Below are positions 2,035-15,609 of a stretch of DNA of 36,806 nt, piece by piece. This DNA comes from a virus. The first letter of the stretch is position 1. Each line of letters begins with the position of its first letter. The notes below the pieces were generated by a model, which saw only the letters and a program-made list of their open reading frames with translations, did not search any database and had not been told where the DNA came from. The position numbers and the translations under genes were made by a program. The DNA lies in IMG/VR virus record IMGVR_UViG_3300032278_000045, positions 1-36,806 of that record; one strand, 5' to 3'.

Positions 2035-2720
2035 TTATATATCTTTACTAATCGACACACCTTTTCTGAATTATTTGCTATAGTCACTGAATTAGAAGTT
2101 AGCTTTTTAATTGCATGTTTTGCAACATCATCACTTCCTATTTTGCAGGCCTGACCAAAGATAATATAACAAGTTGTACCTGATTTGTTTGTTACAATTG
2201 ACCCCCCGGAAAGAATGTCTGCTTTTTCAAAAGTCCACCCGCTGTCATGCTGCATAGGGCATAATAAAATAGTATCATCTTCTACAATTTCAACGGTTGC
2301 TTTTTTACAATCTGGTTCATATTTTATTGGTGATATTTTCCAGCCCGTTGCATTTTCAGTAATAATAGCTGTGCCCACTGTATAACCAGACCCAGTTTGA
2401 GGGTTACAATGAGAATGCTCTGGATTATTTGTTGCTTGCCATGTTTCGTAAGTGGCAACATCAGAATCAGAAAAATCATCTCCATCAAACCACTCGTATT
2501 TAACTTTTAATGATCCTTCTAATAAAAAATAATTATTAGGAGTTTTAATTAGACAATTATGGGTTGGATGTTTTTCAATTAAGGAATTACCAGCCGTGTC
2601 TTGTGGGTGTTCAGCTCTTGATTCACGAACAATTTTATCTCCTTCTTTTGTATTTGTTGATATTGATATCTGTAAGTTATCTTCAATATTAATTACATCA
2701 AACCCTATACTAAAAATCAT
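2031..2720 (-). CDS. Hypothetical protein, probably virion or tail-associated
   Basis: A 229-aa protein without a recognised domain. It is rich in Ser, Thr, Asn and Gly, has alternating hydrophobic residues suggesting beta structure, and contains six scattered cysteines (for example around LLCPMQ and TTCYI). There is no signal peptide or membrane segment. It starts in an ATGA overlap with the gene above and ends in an ATGA overlap with the Coq4-like gene. It lies two genes downstream of a tail-fibre-like protein, so a tail-fibre accessory role is possible, but this rests on position and composition only. Confidence 0.65.
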   Translation of the reverse strand: MIFSIGFDVINIEDNLQISISTNTKEGDKIVRESRAEHPQDTAGNSLIEKHPTHNCLIKTPNNYFLLEGSLKVKYEWFDGDDFSDSDVATYETWQATNNPEHSHCNPQTGSGYTVGTAIITENATGWKISPIKYEPDCKKATVEIVEDDTILLCPMQHDSGWTFEKADILSGGSIVTNKSGTTCYIIFGQACKIGSDDVAKHAIKKLTSNSVTIANNSEKVCRLVKIYK

Positions 2721-3667: not shown

Positions 3668-3919
3668 TTATACTAAACCAGCGTGTTTGAAATAAATTAT
3701 TCCCTTTTCATAATCAAAGTGATGTGGATTGCCGGCCAGTTCTATAGGTGACATACGATCCATTCTTGCCCAATTAGTGTGGCCATATTTTTTTTTACAA
3801 ATTTTATCTATTTGAGAAGAAGTTAATACTTCTTCTGGGTTAGTTGATGTCATATCAACTTCTGTGTATGGAGCTCCAGTATCTTCTGGGATCCATTCTA
3901 TTTCAAATTCTTCTGTCAT
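3668..3919 (-). CDS. Hypothetical acidic protein
   Basis: An 83-aa protein of unknown family. The N-terminus is acidic (EEFEIEWIPEDTG), the middle carries a likely helix with CKKKYGHTNWARM, and the end contains HHFDYEKG. It begins in an ATGA overlap with the gene above and ends one base before the tail-fibre-like gene. It shows no membrane segment or metal-binding cysteine pair. Tight coupling on both sides argues that it is a real gene. Confidence 0.6.
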   Translation of the reverse strand: MTEEFEIEWIPEDTGAPYTEVDMTSTNPEEVLTSSQIDKICKKKYGHTNWARMDRMSPIELAGNPHHFDYEKGIIYFKHAGLV

Positions 3920-4311
3920 TCCTTCATATCGTATGGATCAGTTGATAGCATACGCTGTTTTTTATTTATATCTTTACCAAGAATAATATCTTCCATGTTC
4001 TTGTATAAATAATTGGCCATCTGACCAATAATATTATCTTGGGATAGTGTTTCAGCTAAATCTTTTAAAGACTCACCGTTCTGTAGACACCTAGAAATTA
4101 ATTTTCCAGAAGCTCTCAGTTCTCTGTCTAAATAAGAGTCTGTTGGTTTGAGTTTCATCCAAAAAGCGAGAGGAACTAACCCGGTTTTGTCAGGTACATA
4201 ATTTACAATACCTATCACCTTCCGATTATCTATCGGAAGAGCGAAAGTTGCACTCATCATCCTATTAGGAATCTCTGTTCTCACCTTAGTATTTTCCTTA
4301 ATTAAAGTCAT
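3916..4311 (-). CDS. Hypothetical protein, faint resemblance to TSCPD-type domains
   Basis: A 131-aa protein. Its second half, LRASGKLISRCLQNGESLKDLAETL, has the helix pattern seen in the TSCPD domain found at the C-terminus of some ribonucleotide reductases and as small stand-alone proteins ('LiSlaLq.G..l..i...L'). The preceding strand VPLAFWMKLKP also fits. This is a weak, by-eye likeness and the usual T-S-C-P-D signature is absent. A GAGG lies nine bases before the ATG, and the gene overlaps the membrane-protein gene by 14 bases. If real, the link would point to nucleotide metabolism; otherwise the function is unknown. Confidence 0.6.
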   Translation of the reverse strand: MTLIKENTKVRTEIPNRMMSATFALPIDNRKVIGIVNYVPDKTGLVPLAFWMKLKPTDSYLDRELRASGKLISRCLQNGESLKDLAETLSQDNIIGQMANYLYKNMEDIILGKDINKKQRMLSTDPYDMKE

Positions 4312-4513
4312 CCTTGTGTGCCTCTATGAACTGAAAGAGACCAATATTAGTCTCTTTTATGTGTTCTATCTCCACCCACATCGAATCGATTACAATATAT
4401 ATATTATAGATCGTAAAAATATTTGCAATCATTAATGCTGCTGTACAGATTAAAACTGTCCATACAATTACGCCACTAGCATATGCTCCGAGCGTTATCT
4501 TGAAGTCGTTCAT
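4298..4513 (-). CDS. Small single-pass membrane protein
   Basis: A 71-aa protein with one long hydrophobic stretch (about residues 10-40, including VIVWTVLICTAALMIANIF) and a polar, acidic C-terminal tail (IEAHKDDFN). The start is well supported: GGAGG lies seven bases before the ATG. The gene overlaps its upstream neighbour by 38 bases. Small membrane proteins of this kind in phages include holins, superinfection-exclusion factors and spanin parts. It lies far from the endolysin gene, so a lysis role is not favoured. No family was recognised. Confidence 0.65.
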   Translation of the reverse strand: MNDFKITLGAYASGVIVWTVLICTAALMIANIFTIYNIYIVIDSMWVEIEHIKETNIGLFQFIEAHKDDFN

Positions 4514-4650: not shown

Positions 4651-5364
4651 TTATATACCATCCTTTACTGCTGTAAAATCTCTCCAACCACTGGCTGGAA
4701 TAATTTGTAGTTCATCACTAAGCTTCCAGTGTTTGTGGGTTTTATACCCTTCCGGGGGATGATCCCAAATACACCATATTAAAACAAGTCTTTTCATAGG
4801 AAACCCTTCTAGCTTCGGTTTAAAATCTGTTACTCTGTGGTAAAGGTTAGCCGGAAACTTAACCGCCAGATTTTGGAAAGGCTTGATTGTCGTGATACTG
4901 GCCCCTAATGGTGGTTCGTACTTATTGTCTAATATATACTTACCATCCCAAGGATGAGATGTGCATATTTGTAACTCACCACCAATTATGTTTTGTATCA
5001 TAAGATAAAGTAAGTGTGTGGTTCGTCCTACACGACTAGAGGTAGGATCTTCAGCATTATAATCTAATCGATCTTTTATATCTGCCACTGCCTGACCTCG
5101 TTTAAATTTAGATTTAAAAACAACTTCATCCCCATCTACATGCCACTGACTTGGGTCGTTCCAACGAAACCAATACTCTATGTGTTCTTTACCCGGAGTG
5201 ATTGCACGTAGTATTTTTTCAATATGGTTTTCAGCTGGTTCATCTTTCGGCAAAAAACTATATAGAGGAAATCTTTGATATACAACTGATGGGTCATCAG
5301 TTATATACTCACACAAAAACTCAAAATCTTTACTATCTAGTGCGTCTGGTTTATATTGGATCAT
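4651..5364 (-). CDS. 2-oxoglutarate/Fe(II)-dependent oxygenase
   Basis: A 237-aa protein. The ATG at 5364 is chosen over the one at 5370 because AGGAG lies seven bases before it and it makes an ATGA overlap with the zinc-protein gene. The prolyl-4-hydroxylase-type core is visible. H75-V-D77 supplies the HxD iron ligands, and YLMIQNIIGGELQI (120-133) matches the family's 'YLN...GGEL' strand. FPANLYHRV (170-178) supplies the distal H176, and R192 in KRLVLIW is a candidate to bind 2-oxoglutarate. The enzyme would hydroxylate or otherwise oxidise a protein, nucleic acid or metabolite. Such oxygenases are common in marine phages but their substrates are rarely known. It heads the functional part of the accessory operon. 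Confidence 0.8.
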   Translation of the reverse strand: MIQYKPDALDSKDFEFLCEYITDDPSVVYQRFPLYSFLPKDEPAENHIEKILRAITPGKEHIEYWFRWNDPSQWHVDGDEVVFKSKFKRGQAVADIKDRLDYNAEDPTSSRVGRTTHLLYLMIQNIIGGELQICTSHPWDGKYILDNKYEPPLGASITTIKPFQNLAVKFPANLYHRVTDFKPKLEGFPMKRLVLIWCIWDHPPEGYKTHKHWKLSDELQIIPASGWRDFTAVKDGI

Positions 5365-5576
5365 ATACATTCTCCTGATTTTTTACCCCGTGCTTCAATG
5401 CCGCCTTCTACGTTTTCACGGCATTGATACGCTGGAAGTGTTACCCAACCTTGAGACTTACATTGTGGACATTGATATTCCACTAAGTCAGGTGTGCTTA
5501 CAACTTTAATAAAACCATTCCCGTCACAACGCGGGCAAATAGCTTTAACGTCGTGCTTTCCCGTTAGATTTACCAT
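5361..5576 (-). CDS. DnaJ-type CxxCxGxG zinc-binding protein
   Basis: A 71-aa protein with CPRCDGNGFIKV (residues 14-25) and CPQCKSQGW (36-44). These two knuckles form one zinc site of the type seen in the DnaJ central domain. No J domain is present, so it is a free-standing zinc module, perhaps for protein or RNA contacts. GAGGA precedes the ATG by six bases. It overlaps the ribbon-helix-helix-like gene by 32 bases upstream and the oxygenase gene by four bases (ATGA) downstream. Confidence 0.72.
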   Translation of the reverse strand: MVNLTGKHDVKAICPRCDGNGFIKVVSTPDLVEYQCPQCKSQGWVTLPAYQCRENVEGGIEARGKKSGECI

Positions 5577-5724
5577 GTTTTTTCCTCATTTCTTTTTCTA
5601 ATAAAAACTCTATCACTTTTTGTACACTTACTGGTACTTCAAAACGATTATGAGCTAAATCTACTAGTTTCATATGTGTACCGGTTGATACACTTACTGA
5701 TTTGAATCTACTTATATCTGGCAT
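5545..5724 (-). CDS. Small ribbon-helix-helix-like protein
   Basis: A 59-aa gene in an otherwise uncalled gap, preceded by an ideal GGAGG five bases before its ATG. The protein reads MPDISRFKSVSVSTG, then HMKLVDLAHN, then VPVSVQKVIEFLLEKEMRKK. One short strand followed by two helices with a 'svs..i..ll' second helix is the layout of Arc/CopG-type ribbon-helix-helix DNA-binding proteins. It is the first gene of the accessory operon, just downstream of a predicted promoter and of a small palindrome at 5744-5754, so it may regulate this operon itself. The start and coding nature are well supported; the fold is inferred. Confidence 0.7.
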   Translation of the reverse strand: MPDISRFKSVSVSTGTHMKLVDLAHNRFEVPVSVQKVIEFLLEKEMRKKHGKSNGKARR

Positions 5725-5756: not shown

Positions 5757-5786
5757 ACTATATAGAGCAATTATTGTATTTGACAA
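5757..5786 (-). promoter_or_regulatory. Predicted sigma70-like promoter for the accessory operon
   Basis: On the minus strand TTGTCA (bases 5781-5786) is followed, 18 bases on, by TATAGT (5757-5762) or, 16 bases on, by TATATA (5759-5764). Transcription would begin around 5750 and enter the 5724 gene after a short leader. Its -35 box overlaps that of the plus-strand promoter, so two polymerases could not occupy both at once. Confidence 0.55.
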
Positions 5787-5807
5787 GAGTTTATTTTAAT
5801 TTATTAT
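5780..5807 (+). promoter_or_regulatory. Predicted plus-strand sigma70-like promoter
   Basis: A perfect TTGACA (5780-5785), a 16-base AT-rich spacer and TATTAT (5802-5807). The expected start is near 5814. The only element downstream before the next minus-strand gene end is the hairpin at 5831-5867, so the product would be a short RNA rather than an mRNA. Confidence 0.55.
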
Positions 5808-5813
5808 ACAAAA

Positions 5814-5867
5814 ATCTTCTCACCTTCATGTGTCGGCGGCTTTTTCCTTAGTTGCCGGCATTTTTTT
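5814..5867 (+). ncRNA. Predicted small plus-strand RNA
   Basis: The region between the plus-strand promoter (TTGACA, 16 bases, TATTAT) and the terminator hairpin would give a transcript of about 55 nt: a short unpaired leader, then a stem-loop ending in U7. It holds only a possible 7-codon frame starting at the ATG at 5828 and no recognised RNA family. It runs antisense to everything nearby and ends just short of the 3' end of the nuclease gene (5880). It could be a regulatory RNA made early in infection. Promoter plus terminator spacing is the only evidence. Confidence 0.45.
5831..5867 (+). terminator. Rho-independent terminator, plus strand
   Basis: TGTCGGCGGC pairs with GTTGCCGGCA across a 10-base loop, giving a ten-pair stem that includes three G-T wobbles. 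Seven T follow directly. The T run lies on the plus-strand side only; the minus-strand copy is followed by CATGAAGG, so the signal is directional. No protein gene on the plus strand feeds into it. Confidence 0.65.
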
Positions 5868-11940: not shown

Positions 11941-12080
11941 TTTTTCTTCCTCGGTCTTCCTCTAGCTTTTCCATAGTTTGGTCTAAATGTTGGCTTGCAT
12001 AATTCATTACAATATTGTTTTGTTGTTTGCCATTTTGATATAGAAAACTCACTTCCACATTTTATACATATTTTAATCAT
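11937..12080 (-). CDS. 47-aa zinc-knuckle/AT-hook-like protein
   Basis: A short gene with AGGA eight bases before its ATG. The protein has CIKC (residues 5-8) and CNELC (24-28), which would form one zinc site, and ends KARGRPRKKK. The RGRP core with flanking basic residues is an AT-hook, a minor-groove binder of AT-rich DNA. The start overlaps the HTH gene by 8 bases and the stop overlaps the primase GTG start by 3 bases, so it is part of the operon. A role in DNA binding beside the primase is likely, but this is inferred from motifs alone. Confidence 0.72.
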   Translation of the reverse strand: MIKICIKCGSEFSISKWQTTKQYCNELCKPTFRPNYGKARGRPRKKK

Positions 12081-12273
12081 TATATTTATCCTGTCCTTCT
12101 AACCATTGTATTATGTCGTCTTCTTTAAAATATTTAACTAATCCTATCTTAATATATGGGACATTAAACGTGCCGTTGCGAATTTTGCGATTAACTGTTC
12201 CTTGTTCAAATCCACGGGGGATTCCTATGTCCCTCATAAATTTTTGCACCTGACTTATCGATACTCTTTGCAT
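12073..12273 (-). CDS. Excisionase/AlpA-like HTH protein
   Basis: A 66-aa protein with a MerR/HTH_17-type winged helix: VSISQVQKFMRDIG, then VNRKIRNGTF with basic residues in the recognition region, then VPYIKIGLVKYFKEDDIIQWL. The final 'y.k.g....f...di..WL' is typical of excisionase and AlpA-like DNA-binding proteins. AGGAGA lies five bases before the ATG. No integrase or attachment site is visible, so it more likely acts as a transcriptional or replication regulator than as an excisionase. Confidence 0.75.
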   Translation of the reverse strand: MQRVSISQVQKFMRDIGIPRGFEQGTVNRKIRNGTFNVPYIKIGLVKYFKEDDIIQWLEGQDKYND

Positions 12274-12296: not shown

Positions 12297-12336
12297 GAAG
12301 AACCTCGGACACGGGGGAGTTAATCCGAGGCTCTTC
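12297..12336. other. Imperfect hairpin between SSB-like and HTH genes
   Basis: GAAGAACCTCGGA pairs with TCCGAGGCTCTTC across a 14-base loop: 13 positions with one A-C mismatch, including seven perfect inner pairs. It fills most of the 69-base gap between the stop of the SSB-like gene and the start of the HTH gene. Neither side has a T run, so it is not a standard terminator. It may act as an attenuator, an RNA-processing site or an mRNA-stabilising end. Confidence 0.5.
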
Positions 12337-12342
12337 TCATGT

Positions 12343-13104
12343 TTAAAACGGTACTTCTTCTTTAGAATTAGTACTATCTTTTCCATGCTTCGCTTCCACT
12401 GTGCCCGTAGTTACACTAGAAGCAAACTGTTTTGCAGTCTCGTACATATTTTTATCTGTTACGGGACCAACTAAAGTTATGTTCCAACCAAACCACGTAC
12501 CTTTATCATTTGATTGTTGGACTGTAGTTAAGTTATACATATGACTGTATGAAGCCGGTGTGAACAGACCATCTTTGCCTTGCATTTTGATAGTGTTCAT
12601 CATCGTATTCCATGTGCGGCTCACCTTCAATTGTGTCGACTTCATGGAAATCAAAGCTCCTTGACAATCCATTAAAAGCACAAAATAAGACGCAGTGTTT
12701 TCTAGATAGTTACCATTAGGTAATCTATCTTTCCAGTCAGATCCTCTAGTAGCTTCTTTAATGATGCCACTACTAACTGGATGGATAGCAACAGGAGCAC
12801 TTGTGCCCTCGCCTCTATCACTCCACTCAACATACTCTCGCTTATAACCGCAAGGAATTACTCTTACACCTTGCTCGCCATCAAACAATTGCTTAGTCAC
12901 GGTATTAAAAATCATACCTGGCTCTGCATGTTGTATATATTTGGCATCACGTTTGTTTGTTTCGGGGGATAGCTGTCCTAGTACACGTAAGAAAGGCATA
13001 GCAAAATCTTCGCTACTCATTCCCTGCATACCACCAGCCTTGTCTTCTTCAAACATACTCGCTAGAGCTACATCTGAATTTTCTTTTTTAGTTACTTGGT
13101 TCAT
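12343..13104 (-). CDS. Putative single-stranded DNA-binding protein
   Basis: A 253-aa protein. Its last residues, SKEEVPF, mimic the acidic-hydrophobic tip (DDxPF type) by which SSB proteins recruit partners. The body is beta-rich with many aromatic residues (EYVEWSDRG, WFGWNITLVG), as expected of a DNA-binding OB-type or phage SSB fold. A signature sequence of a named family was not recognised. Position within the replication operon supports the call. GGAG lies eight bases before the ATG. Confidence 0.6.
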   Translation of the reverse strand: MNQVTKKENSDVALASMFEEDKAGGMQGMSSEDFAMPFLRVLGQLSPETNKRDAKYIQHAEPGMIFNTVTKQLFDGEQGVRVIPCGYKREYVEWSDRGEGTSAPVAIHPVSSGIIKEATRGSDWKDRLPNGNYLENTASYFVLLMDCQGALISMKSTQLKVSRTWNTMMNTIKMQGKDGLFTPASYSHMYNLTTVQQSNDKGTWFGWNITLVGPVTDKNMYETAKQFASSVTTGTVEAKHGKDSTNSKEEVPF

Positions 13105-14163: not shown

Positions 14164-15609
14164 ATGATAAAAGATTATAGGTTTAAGACTAAACCCTATG
14201 ACCATCAAATTAAAGCCTTAGAGAAGTCTTGGGCCTCAGAAACCTTTGGTTTATTTATGGAAATGGGTACAGGAAAATCAAAAGTTTTAGTTGACAACAT
14301 CGCTATGCTCTATGACAGAGGCGCGATCCGTGGTGCACTAATCGTCGCCCCTAAGGGTGTGTATAAAAACTGGGATGAGATAGAGTTCCCCACACATATG
14401 CCTGAACATGTTGGCTACACTAAGGTTTTGTGGGAAGCAAATTTGACAAAGAAGAAACAGTTCGAACTCGATACTTTATTTGATGATAAAGGTGATCTTA
14501 AGATATTGATAATGAATGTAGAAGCATTCTCTACAACAAAAGGACTGGACTTTGCGCACAGTTTCCTTAACATCTTCCTTGGAAAAGCTTTAATAGGGAT
14601 TGATGAATCTACGACGATCAAGAATCCGACAGCAAAGCGTACCAAAAACATTTTAAAAATAGGGAATCTTGCTAAATACCGTAGAATATTAACCGGCTCT
14701 CCAGTTACCAAATCACCACTTGATTTATATAGTCAATGTGAATTCTTAGACCTATGGCATTTAGGGCATCCTTCTTACTATAGCTTCCGCTCACGTTATG
14801 CCCATATGATTGAAAGAAATTTCGGTGGTAGAAGTGTTCAGCTAGTTGGTAGTTATAGAAGACTTGATGAACTTGCTGAGAATTTAGAAAAGTTTTCTTA
14901 TAGAGTATTGAAGGAAGATTGTTTAGATCTCCCCCCTAAAATATATATGAAGAGAATTATAGAACTCACCGATGAACAGAAGAAAGTTTATGCACAAATG
15001 AAACAAATAGCTTTAGCTGAACTCGATGGTAAAGTGATGAGCTCAATTAATGTTATGACACAGCTGATGAGGCTTCATCAGATCACTTGTGGTCATTTTA
15101 AATCAGACGATGGAGAGATCCAACACTTAAAAAATAATAGACTTGATGAATTAATGTCGTTGCTTGATGAAGTTGAGGGCAAAGTAATAATCTGGGCTAA
15201 TTATGTGGAAGATATAAAAAAAATAGTAGGAACTCTAAAAAAAGCTTACGGAGAGGACTCTACAGTCGAATATCATGGGTCAGTGGACCCAAGGTACCGC
15301 CAGGAACAGATTGCTCTATTTCAAGAGAAAAACAGCCCTGCGCGCTATTTCGTAGGAAACCCACAAACTGGAGGGTATGGAATTACTCTTACCGCTGCGA
15401 GCACAGTAGTATACTATTCTAACAGTTATGATCTAGAAAAAAGATTACAATCTGAAGATAGAGCACATCGAATTGGTCAAAATAATAGTGTTACTTATGT
15501 TGACTTGGTAGCAGAAAAGACTATAGACGAACGTATCGTCAAATCACTACGAAATAAAATAAATATCGCAAATGAAATCATGGGGGAGGATCTTAAAGAT
15601 TGGATCTAA
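14164..15609 (+). CDS. SNF2-family DNA helicase/translocase
   Basis: A 481-aa superfamily 2 ATPase and the only plus-strand gene. Motif I is MGTGKS (34-39), preceded by PYDHQ with Q15 as the Q-motif glutamine. IVAPKGVYKNW gives motif Ia, DEST (147-150) motif II and LTGSP (176-180) motif III. QSEDRAHRIGQ (429-439) is the SNF2-type motif VI. The protein is a minimal SNF2 core without chromodomain or nuclease. Such proteins translocate on double-stranded DNA and displace bound proteins; many marine phages encode one, probably for replication or to clear host factors. Its ribosome binding site is weak (AAGAAAG ten bases before the ATG). Its stop codon overlaps the endolysin gene's stop on the other strand. 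Confidence 0.92.
   Translation: MIKDYRFKTKPYDHQIKALEKSWASETFGLFMEMGTGKSKVLVDNIAMLYDRGAIRGALIVAPKGVYKNWDEIEFPTHMPEHVGYTKVLWEANLTKKKQFELDTLFDDKGDLKILIMNVEAFSTTKGLDFAHSFLNIFLGKALIGIDESTTIKNPTAKRTKNILKIGNLAKYRRILTGSPVTKSPLDLYSQCEFLDLWHLGHPSYYSFRSRYAHMIERNFGGRSVQLVGSYRRLDELAENLEKFSYRVLKEDCLDLPPKIYMKRIIELTDEQKKVYAQMKQIALAELDGKVMSSINVMTQLMRLHQITCGHFKSDDGEIQHLKNNRLDELMSLLDEVEGKVIIWANYVEDIKKIVGTLKKAYGEDSTVEYHGSVDPRYRQEQIALFQEKNSPARYFVGNPQTGGYGITLTAASTVVYYSNSYDLEKRLQSEDRAHRIGQNNSVTYVDLVAEKTIDERIVKSLRNKINIANEIMGEDLKDWI

Follow-up and report, generated by a model that had tools for sequence, protein, structure and literature searches.

A covarying hairpin and leader suggest a phage-encoded small RNA that represses one cistron of its divergent operon

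Overview

A short element in an uncultured virus genome probably encodes a base-pairing small RNA (sRNA) of a phage, which would repress translation of T131, one cistron of the operon transcribed divergently from it; we give this reading roughly three chances in four. The window, i.e., the whole stretch of DNA that was analysed, is a linear virus record of 36.8 kb (IMGVR_UViG_3300032278_000045, 36,806 nucleotides). The features on which the argument depends are as follows.

5780-5786, both strands: -35 region TTGACAA common to the two arms (TTGACA on plus, TTGTCA on minus), from sequence and relatives
5802-5807, plus strand: -10 box TATTAT of the sRNA promoter, with a 16-nt spacer from TTGACA at 5780-5785, from sequence and relatives
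5757-5764, minus strand: -10 region for the operon, either TATAGT (18-nt spacer) or TATATA (16-nt spacer), from sequence and relatives
5814-5867, plus strand: predicted small RNA of about 54 nt, from fold and hairpin conservation, its start at 5814 placed from the -10 box
5814-5829, plus strand: 5' leader AUCUUCUCACCUUCAU, unstructured and predicted to act as the seed, conserved in relatives and pairing with 4278-4287
5830-5861, plus strand: 12-bp hairpin, whose sequence varies with pairing kept (covariation), followed by a T-run to 5867
5545-5724, minus strand: P3, a 59-aa ribbon-helix-helix-like protein (predicted fold), first operon gene and possible autoregulator
5361-5576, minus strand: zinc-ribbon protein, second operon gene
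4298-4513, minus strand: g71, a small protein with one hydrophobic segment, a possible alternative target where T131 starts with ATG (pairing in part of the relatives)
4278-4287, minus strand: target site AAGGUGAGAA, which spans the T131 start codon GUG (4284-4282) and has 10 contiguous Watson-Crick pairs to the leader
3916-4284, minus strand: T131, the predicted target gene, 122 aa from its putative GTG start; the longest reading frame starts at 4311

The Virus Record and its Relatives

The DNA polymerase gene of the record shares 67-69% DNA identity with those of the Pelagibacter phages HTVC023P and HTVC027P and of phage 023Pt_psg01, and the host is probably SAR11. The main genes all lie on the minus strand, with the single exception of the gene at 14164-15609. 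Two further features of the window are a Coq4-type (ubiquinone biosynthesis) domain in the gene at 1222-2034 on the minus strand (Pfam E 5.5e-8, above its cut-off), and an intergenic hairpin at 12299-12337, between the genes at 12343-13104 and 12073-12273, which pairs fully, with one G-U, on the minus strand (GAAGAGCCTCGGA...TCCGAGGTTCTTC).

Relatives were collected via the polymerase and neighbouring genes, and the region upstream of P3 was cut out with no promoter required. Kinship among these relatives remains in the statistics given below; collapsing them to distinct types lessens the dependence and does not abolish it. Searches of the cultured relatives HTVC023P and HTVC027P found no copy of the element, and weak matches in 023Pt_psg01 and HTVC028P were taken as chance. 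HTVC027P (locus L185) has a P3-like gene, gp21 (2350-2529, minus strand; MTDISKYKSLAVS...), which lies behind TTGACA-TATAAT and lacks the hairpin element.

Divergent Promoters Sharing One -35 Region

The plus arm scores 11/12, joint best of the 73 promoter-like sites in 18.5 kb, and the minus arm (TTGTCA, 18 nt, TATAGT; 5786-5757) scores 10/12. Raw counts of such sites are no higher than in shuffled DNA (73 vs 69 promoter-like and 11 vs 10 terminator-like sites); the pattern by itself therefore proves nothing, and conservation was used as the test. Among relatives chosen solely as "upstream of neighbour gene," TTGACA was found in 61 of 65; the plus -10 box is TATTTT or TATTAT in 46/61, mostly with a 16-nt spacer, and on the minus arm TATAAT, TATAGT or TATATT follows after 16-18 nt. 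Nearly all relatives have a common block composed of TATGGGAYTATATAG, TTGACAA, an A+T-only spacer, TATTAT or TATTTT, ATCTTCTCACCTTCATATG and the hairpin. The full pattern (-35, both -10 boxes and hairpin) stands upstream of P3 in 114 of 120 distinct relatives, at most 110 nt away in 106 of the 120 and up to 1.2 kb away in eight others, where other sequence intervenes (a gene, in the cases read). The gene on the far side differs between relatives, which indicates that the element travels with the operon and not with the upstream gene. Conservation far beyond chance is confirmed, and both the divergent promoters with a common -35 region of the original prediction and the persistence of promoter and stem in close relatives, on which that prediction was to stand or fall, are borne out. 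Two distant relatives (L060 and L061) keep TTGACAA, the leader AUCUUCUUCACUUUUUG and the hairpin, and their plus -10 box is poor.

TTGACAA would be expected to stay invariant, as it does, if both arms use it, which makes mutual exclusion of the two promoters through the common -35 region plausible. The A+T-only spacer and the nearby DNA polymerase gene might instead point to a replication origin, at which the plus-arm transcript would prime DNA synthesis in the A+T-rich region, a role formerly ascribed to lambda OOP RNA (PMC12197685). We find this scarcely credible, since the GC skew has no turn at 5.8 kb and the covariation with T131 described below would be left unexplained.

A Hairpin Selected as Plus-strand RNA

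A folding energy of -18.5 kcal/mol (z -5.3; reached in 0/200 shuffles) was computed for the RNA at 5814-5867. In an alignment of 33 sequences, 11 of the 12 hairpin pairs have two-sided changes and 97.7% of the cells are paired; the covariation was reached in 0/500 shuffles, and slid controls fail. Hairpins were found by scoring G-U and A-C alike, i.e., without strand bias, and the 51 distinct stems contain 533 Watson-Crick, 82 G-U and 2 A-C pairs (694, 110 and 4, respectively, in a wider set of 65 distinct stems). A G-U pair on one strand is an A-C pair on the other; thus, the far greater abundance of G-U indicates selection on the plus-strand RNA only, and a minus-strand RNA is ruled out by the 110 G-U against 4 A-C pairs. 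The element shows selection for RNA structure on the strand that is predicted to be transcribed. A peptide on either strand was rejected, as there is no conserved start and indels break the frame. The stem covariation that the original prediction had called for in related phages, and its claim that no protein gene lies here on the plus strand, therefore hold, and the conserved promoter and the selection of the hairpin as plus-strand RNA favour the predicted plus-strand transcript, about 54 nt long and driven by a promoter of host type.

A search with a covariance model yields a single copy in the window (E 3e-15) and no other above chance; second, weak matches 6 kb away are coding sequence without a hairpin. 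Among 11 SAR11 genomes, only chance-level matches were found, i.e., no homologue of the element in the probable host. No Rfam family reaches the gathering threshold for the element, and the best weak match, L20_leader (20.6 bits vs a threshold of 58.7), was treated as chance.

In the window, the hairpin with its 12 pairs and T7 is the best of the 11 terminator-like sites. The first six positions after the stem contain a mean of 3.5 T (52 distinct tails), against about 0.35 per base genome-wide; five to seven T follow the stem near the window, and elsewhere the tail is often ATTCTAC or similar. The G+C-rich hairpin with a U-tract is present in the window, and the U-tract is short in many relatives, so that the 3' end is uncertain outside the window's clade. 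That transcription ends directly behind the hairpin is a well-supported prediction for the window's close relatives, to which the claim of a stem-loop ending in seven T must also be limited, the T-run being strong only there. Such a terminator, placed directly after the promoter in all relatives, could serve merely to stop stray plus-arm transcription before it ran antisense into the DNA polymerase operon, with the short leader having no function in trans. We regard this as quite improbable, because a terminator needs neither conservation of the leader nor its covariation with T131, and the T-run, which a terminator does require, is the least conserved part.

Pairing Between the Leader and the T131 Start Site

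The ATG of the longest T131 reading frame overlaps the coding end of g71. Codon nine past this ATG is GTG or ATG in all relatives and is preceded by Shine-Dalgarno-like AAGGA or AGGAC, and this codon (4284-4282 in the window) is likely the true start. A hairpin at 4332-4359, inside the end of g71 and about 50 nt before the T131 start, could affect access to the start.

The leader is conserved with slow drift, while the hairpin sequence drifts. In L053 and L054, extra bases lie between the leader and the -10 box and the leader stays with the hairpin; leader indels are of any length, including ones that are not multiples of three, so the leader is not coding. When leader pairing energies were compared over the starts of 14 neighbouring genes in many relatives, T131 was a clear outlier. 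With the start fixed, pairing in 48 relatives is -11.6 kcal/mol vs -7.7 kcal/mol for permuted leaders, and none of 3000 permutations was as good; the same permutations were applied to all relatives, so that kinship affects real and permuted leaders alike. A second set, drawn after the hypothesis by scanning the collection twice more with profiles of P3 and T131, gave 26 new leader-target combinations, for which the values are -14.3 vs -8.4 (z -8.5, 0/2000). Leaders paired with their own rather than swapped targets reach -14.1 vs -11.0 (0/20000, p < 0.0001; n = 15, one row per distinct leader and target); by the length of the longest run, the same 15 give p 0.027, energy being the stronger of the two measures.

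Individual changes in the leader are matched in the target, with G-U counted as a pair: CACCUU with AAGGUG, CACACCUUU with AAAGGUGUG (L377), UUCACGCCUU with AAGGCGUGAG and, with an AUG start, CAUCUUUG with CAAAGAUG. Further matched leaders and targets are UUUUCACGCCUU and AAGGCGUGAGAA (L417), UUUCACGCCUU and GAGGUGUGAGA (L392), UUUCUCACU and AGUGAGAAA (L383), and UUCACCCU and AGGGUGAG (L429), as well as UUUUCAUCUUUG and CAAAGAUGAGAA in L410, where the start is ATG and the leader has CAU in place of CAC. The leader is an accessible seed complementary to the translation start region, and the two covary. The sRNA can thus no longer be called an orphan, as it had been, given a specific, covarying target in the minus-arm operon; of the suggestion that it tunes the accessory operon, the operon as the place of action stands, but base pairing is likelier than promoter competition only.

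A duplex scan of the leader over the whole genome of the window alone was uninformative, and a first scan of six records revealed no significant shared target, because T131 starts had been set at the upstream ATG and half of the records come from clades in which the site is absent. When six long records were scanned genome-wide, the top two ranks among 52 gene clusters went to the adjacent operon genes g83 (first) and T131 (second); T131 alone is weak there (z -1.5), in part owing to the ATG-type T131 of three records.

Relatives Without the T131 Site and Other Targets

In the large L141-type clade (49 loci with the L141 leader core; also L424 and L046), the leader is kept, T131 starts with ATG and there is no pairing; the clade has lost the T131 site. 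Its g71 starts with GTG within GAAGGUGAAAGA or a similar sequence that is complementary to the leader, and GTG-type starts of g71 pair with the leader at a mean of -13.1. These features suggest that the target changed to g71, the preceding gene. In the second set, g71 pairing is not supported (z -1.1). A few GTG-type relatives (L016 and the L113 group) pair poorly.

Retention of the leader where the T131 site is lost would also fit an sRNA that acts mainly on other targets, either host mRNAs or phage genes reached via an anti-Shine-Dalgarno-like UCACCUU, with T131 as one of several. The leader shares the core UCACCU with the 16S 3' end (GGATCACCTCC), g83 and g71 score above chance in some sets, and G002 and G003 (L353-L358), in which the T131 site is absent, have GGGUGAAGA at codons 2-4 of another gene (54-59 aa, MGEE...), matching their leader UCUUCACC. 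Nevertheless, we consider this unlikely: no phage gene of the neighbourhood besides T131 covaries with the leader, and the leader complement GAAGGUGAGAAGAT is not enriched among 147 SAR11 genomes, where it has fewer matches than the reversed control. A host target by exact complement was rejected on these grounds for the probable host group SAR11, so that host targets are covered only in part. For rRNA as a partner, the best duplex with the leader is -17.5 kcal/mol (one rRNA locus, without a shuffle control).

The single hydrophobic segment of g71, the pairing of its GTG-type starts in the clade without T131 pairing, and a long match to the Shine-Dalgarno region in some ATG-type g71 could indicate a pair resembling type I toxin-antitoxin systems, in which the sRNA silences g71. 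Such a pair is very improbable, as many relatives lack the pairing, the second set does not show it, and g71 sits inside a long operon. We know of no type I toxin that does so.

Genes of the Accessory Operon

The operon order is P3, zinc ribbon, a 239-aa protein, g61, g71, T131 and g83. The predicted structure of P3 has two helices (pLDDT 83) with weak fold matches, to Reg576 and ParD-type proteins only; P3 looks like a ribbon-helix-helix protein and could bind at the shared -35 region. The zinc-ribbon protein weakly resembles anti-TRAP (NCBIfam 1.8e-6, below the cut-off). T131 has no match in Pfam, NCBIfam or phage records and no confident fold match.

Proposed Mechanism and Comparison with Known Systems

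In the model that we prefer, repression of T131 by the sRNA, the plus arm of the back-to-back host-type promoters would yield an RNA of about 54 nt, in which a single-stranded leader at the 5' end precedes a hairpin at the 3' end, and the minus arm would yield the accessory operon containing T131. The leader would pair with the T131 start region at about -4 to +7, a stretch that includes the start codon GUG. A start codon held in a duplex is normally closed to 30S binding. The pairing may therefore repress rather than activate, blocking ribosome entry and/or exposing the message to RNases, so that T131 output would be held below that of the other operon cistrons. With a common -35 region, RNA polymerase would serve one arm at a time, and we propose that the sRNA is thus made mainly while the operon is not fired.

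The OOP RNA of lambda is transcribed against the direction of the genes under its control and has a hairpin at its end. It is 77 nt long, has its own promoter and lowers cII (PMC12197685). The predicted RNA is similar in being a short phage RNA from its own promoter that would lower one phage gene. However, OOP is antisense to cII at the place of its synthesis, whereas here the site (4278-4287) lies about 1.5 kb away, comprises about 10 nt and is kept by covariation; a cis-antisense RNA of the OOP type was rejected because of this distance. Moreover, two promoters here share one -35 region. Spot 42 is host-encoded and lies away from its target operon, unlike the present RNA, which is phage-encoded and beside the operon. 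Spot 42 pairs at the beginning of galK, an internal cistron of the galETKM mRNA, and uncouples galK from the operon (PMC8577784); T131 would likewise be lowered relative to its neighbours. The small phage RNAs sar (P22) and c4 (P1/P7) repress ant by pairing (PMC12197685). The RNA predicted here would similarly repress a phage gene via pairing. Both sar and c4 belong to lysogeny control in temperate phages, and their structure and locus differ from those of the element. The literature searched describes no small RNA for pelagiphage-type phages, and a transcriptome study of HTVC027P, which lacks the element, makes no mention of promoters or small RNA (PMC12753301).

A wider and more tentative reading, which we hold at somewhat less than even odds, is that of a self-contained circuit in which one -35 region chooses between an operon and an sRNA silencing a single cistron of it, the seed and start codon co-evolve in more than 100 uncultured marine phages, and the seed has been re-aimed to the neighbouring cistron in one clade. 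For viruses known from metagenomes alone, comparative cases that combine a covarying hairpin with a covarying sRNA-mRNA duplex are rare, and this one yields exact, testable predictions of RNA ends, target and compensatory changes. If the proposal is true, the dose of individual cistrons is set by RNA in phages whose hosts are small, streamlined marine bacteria.
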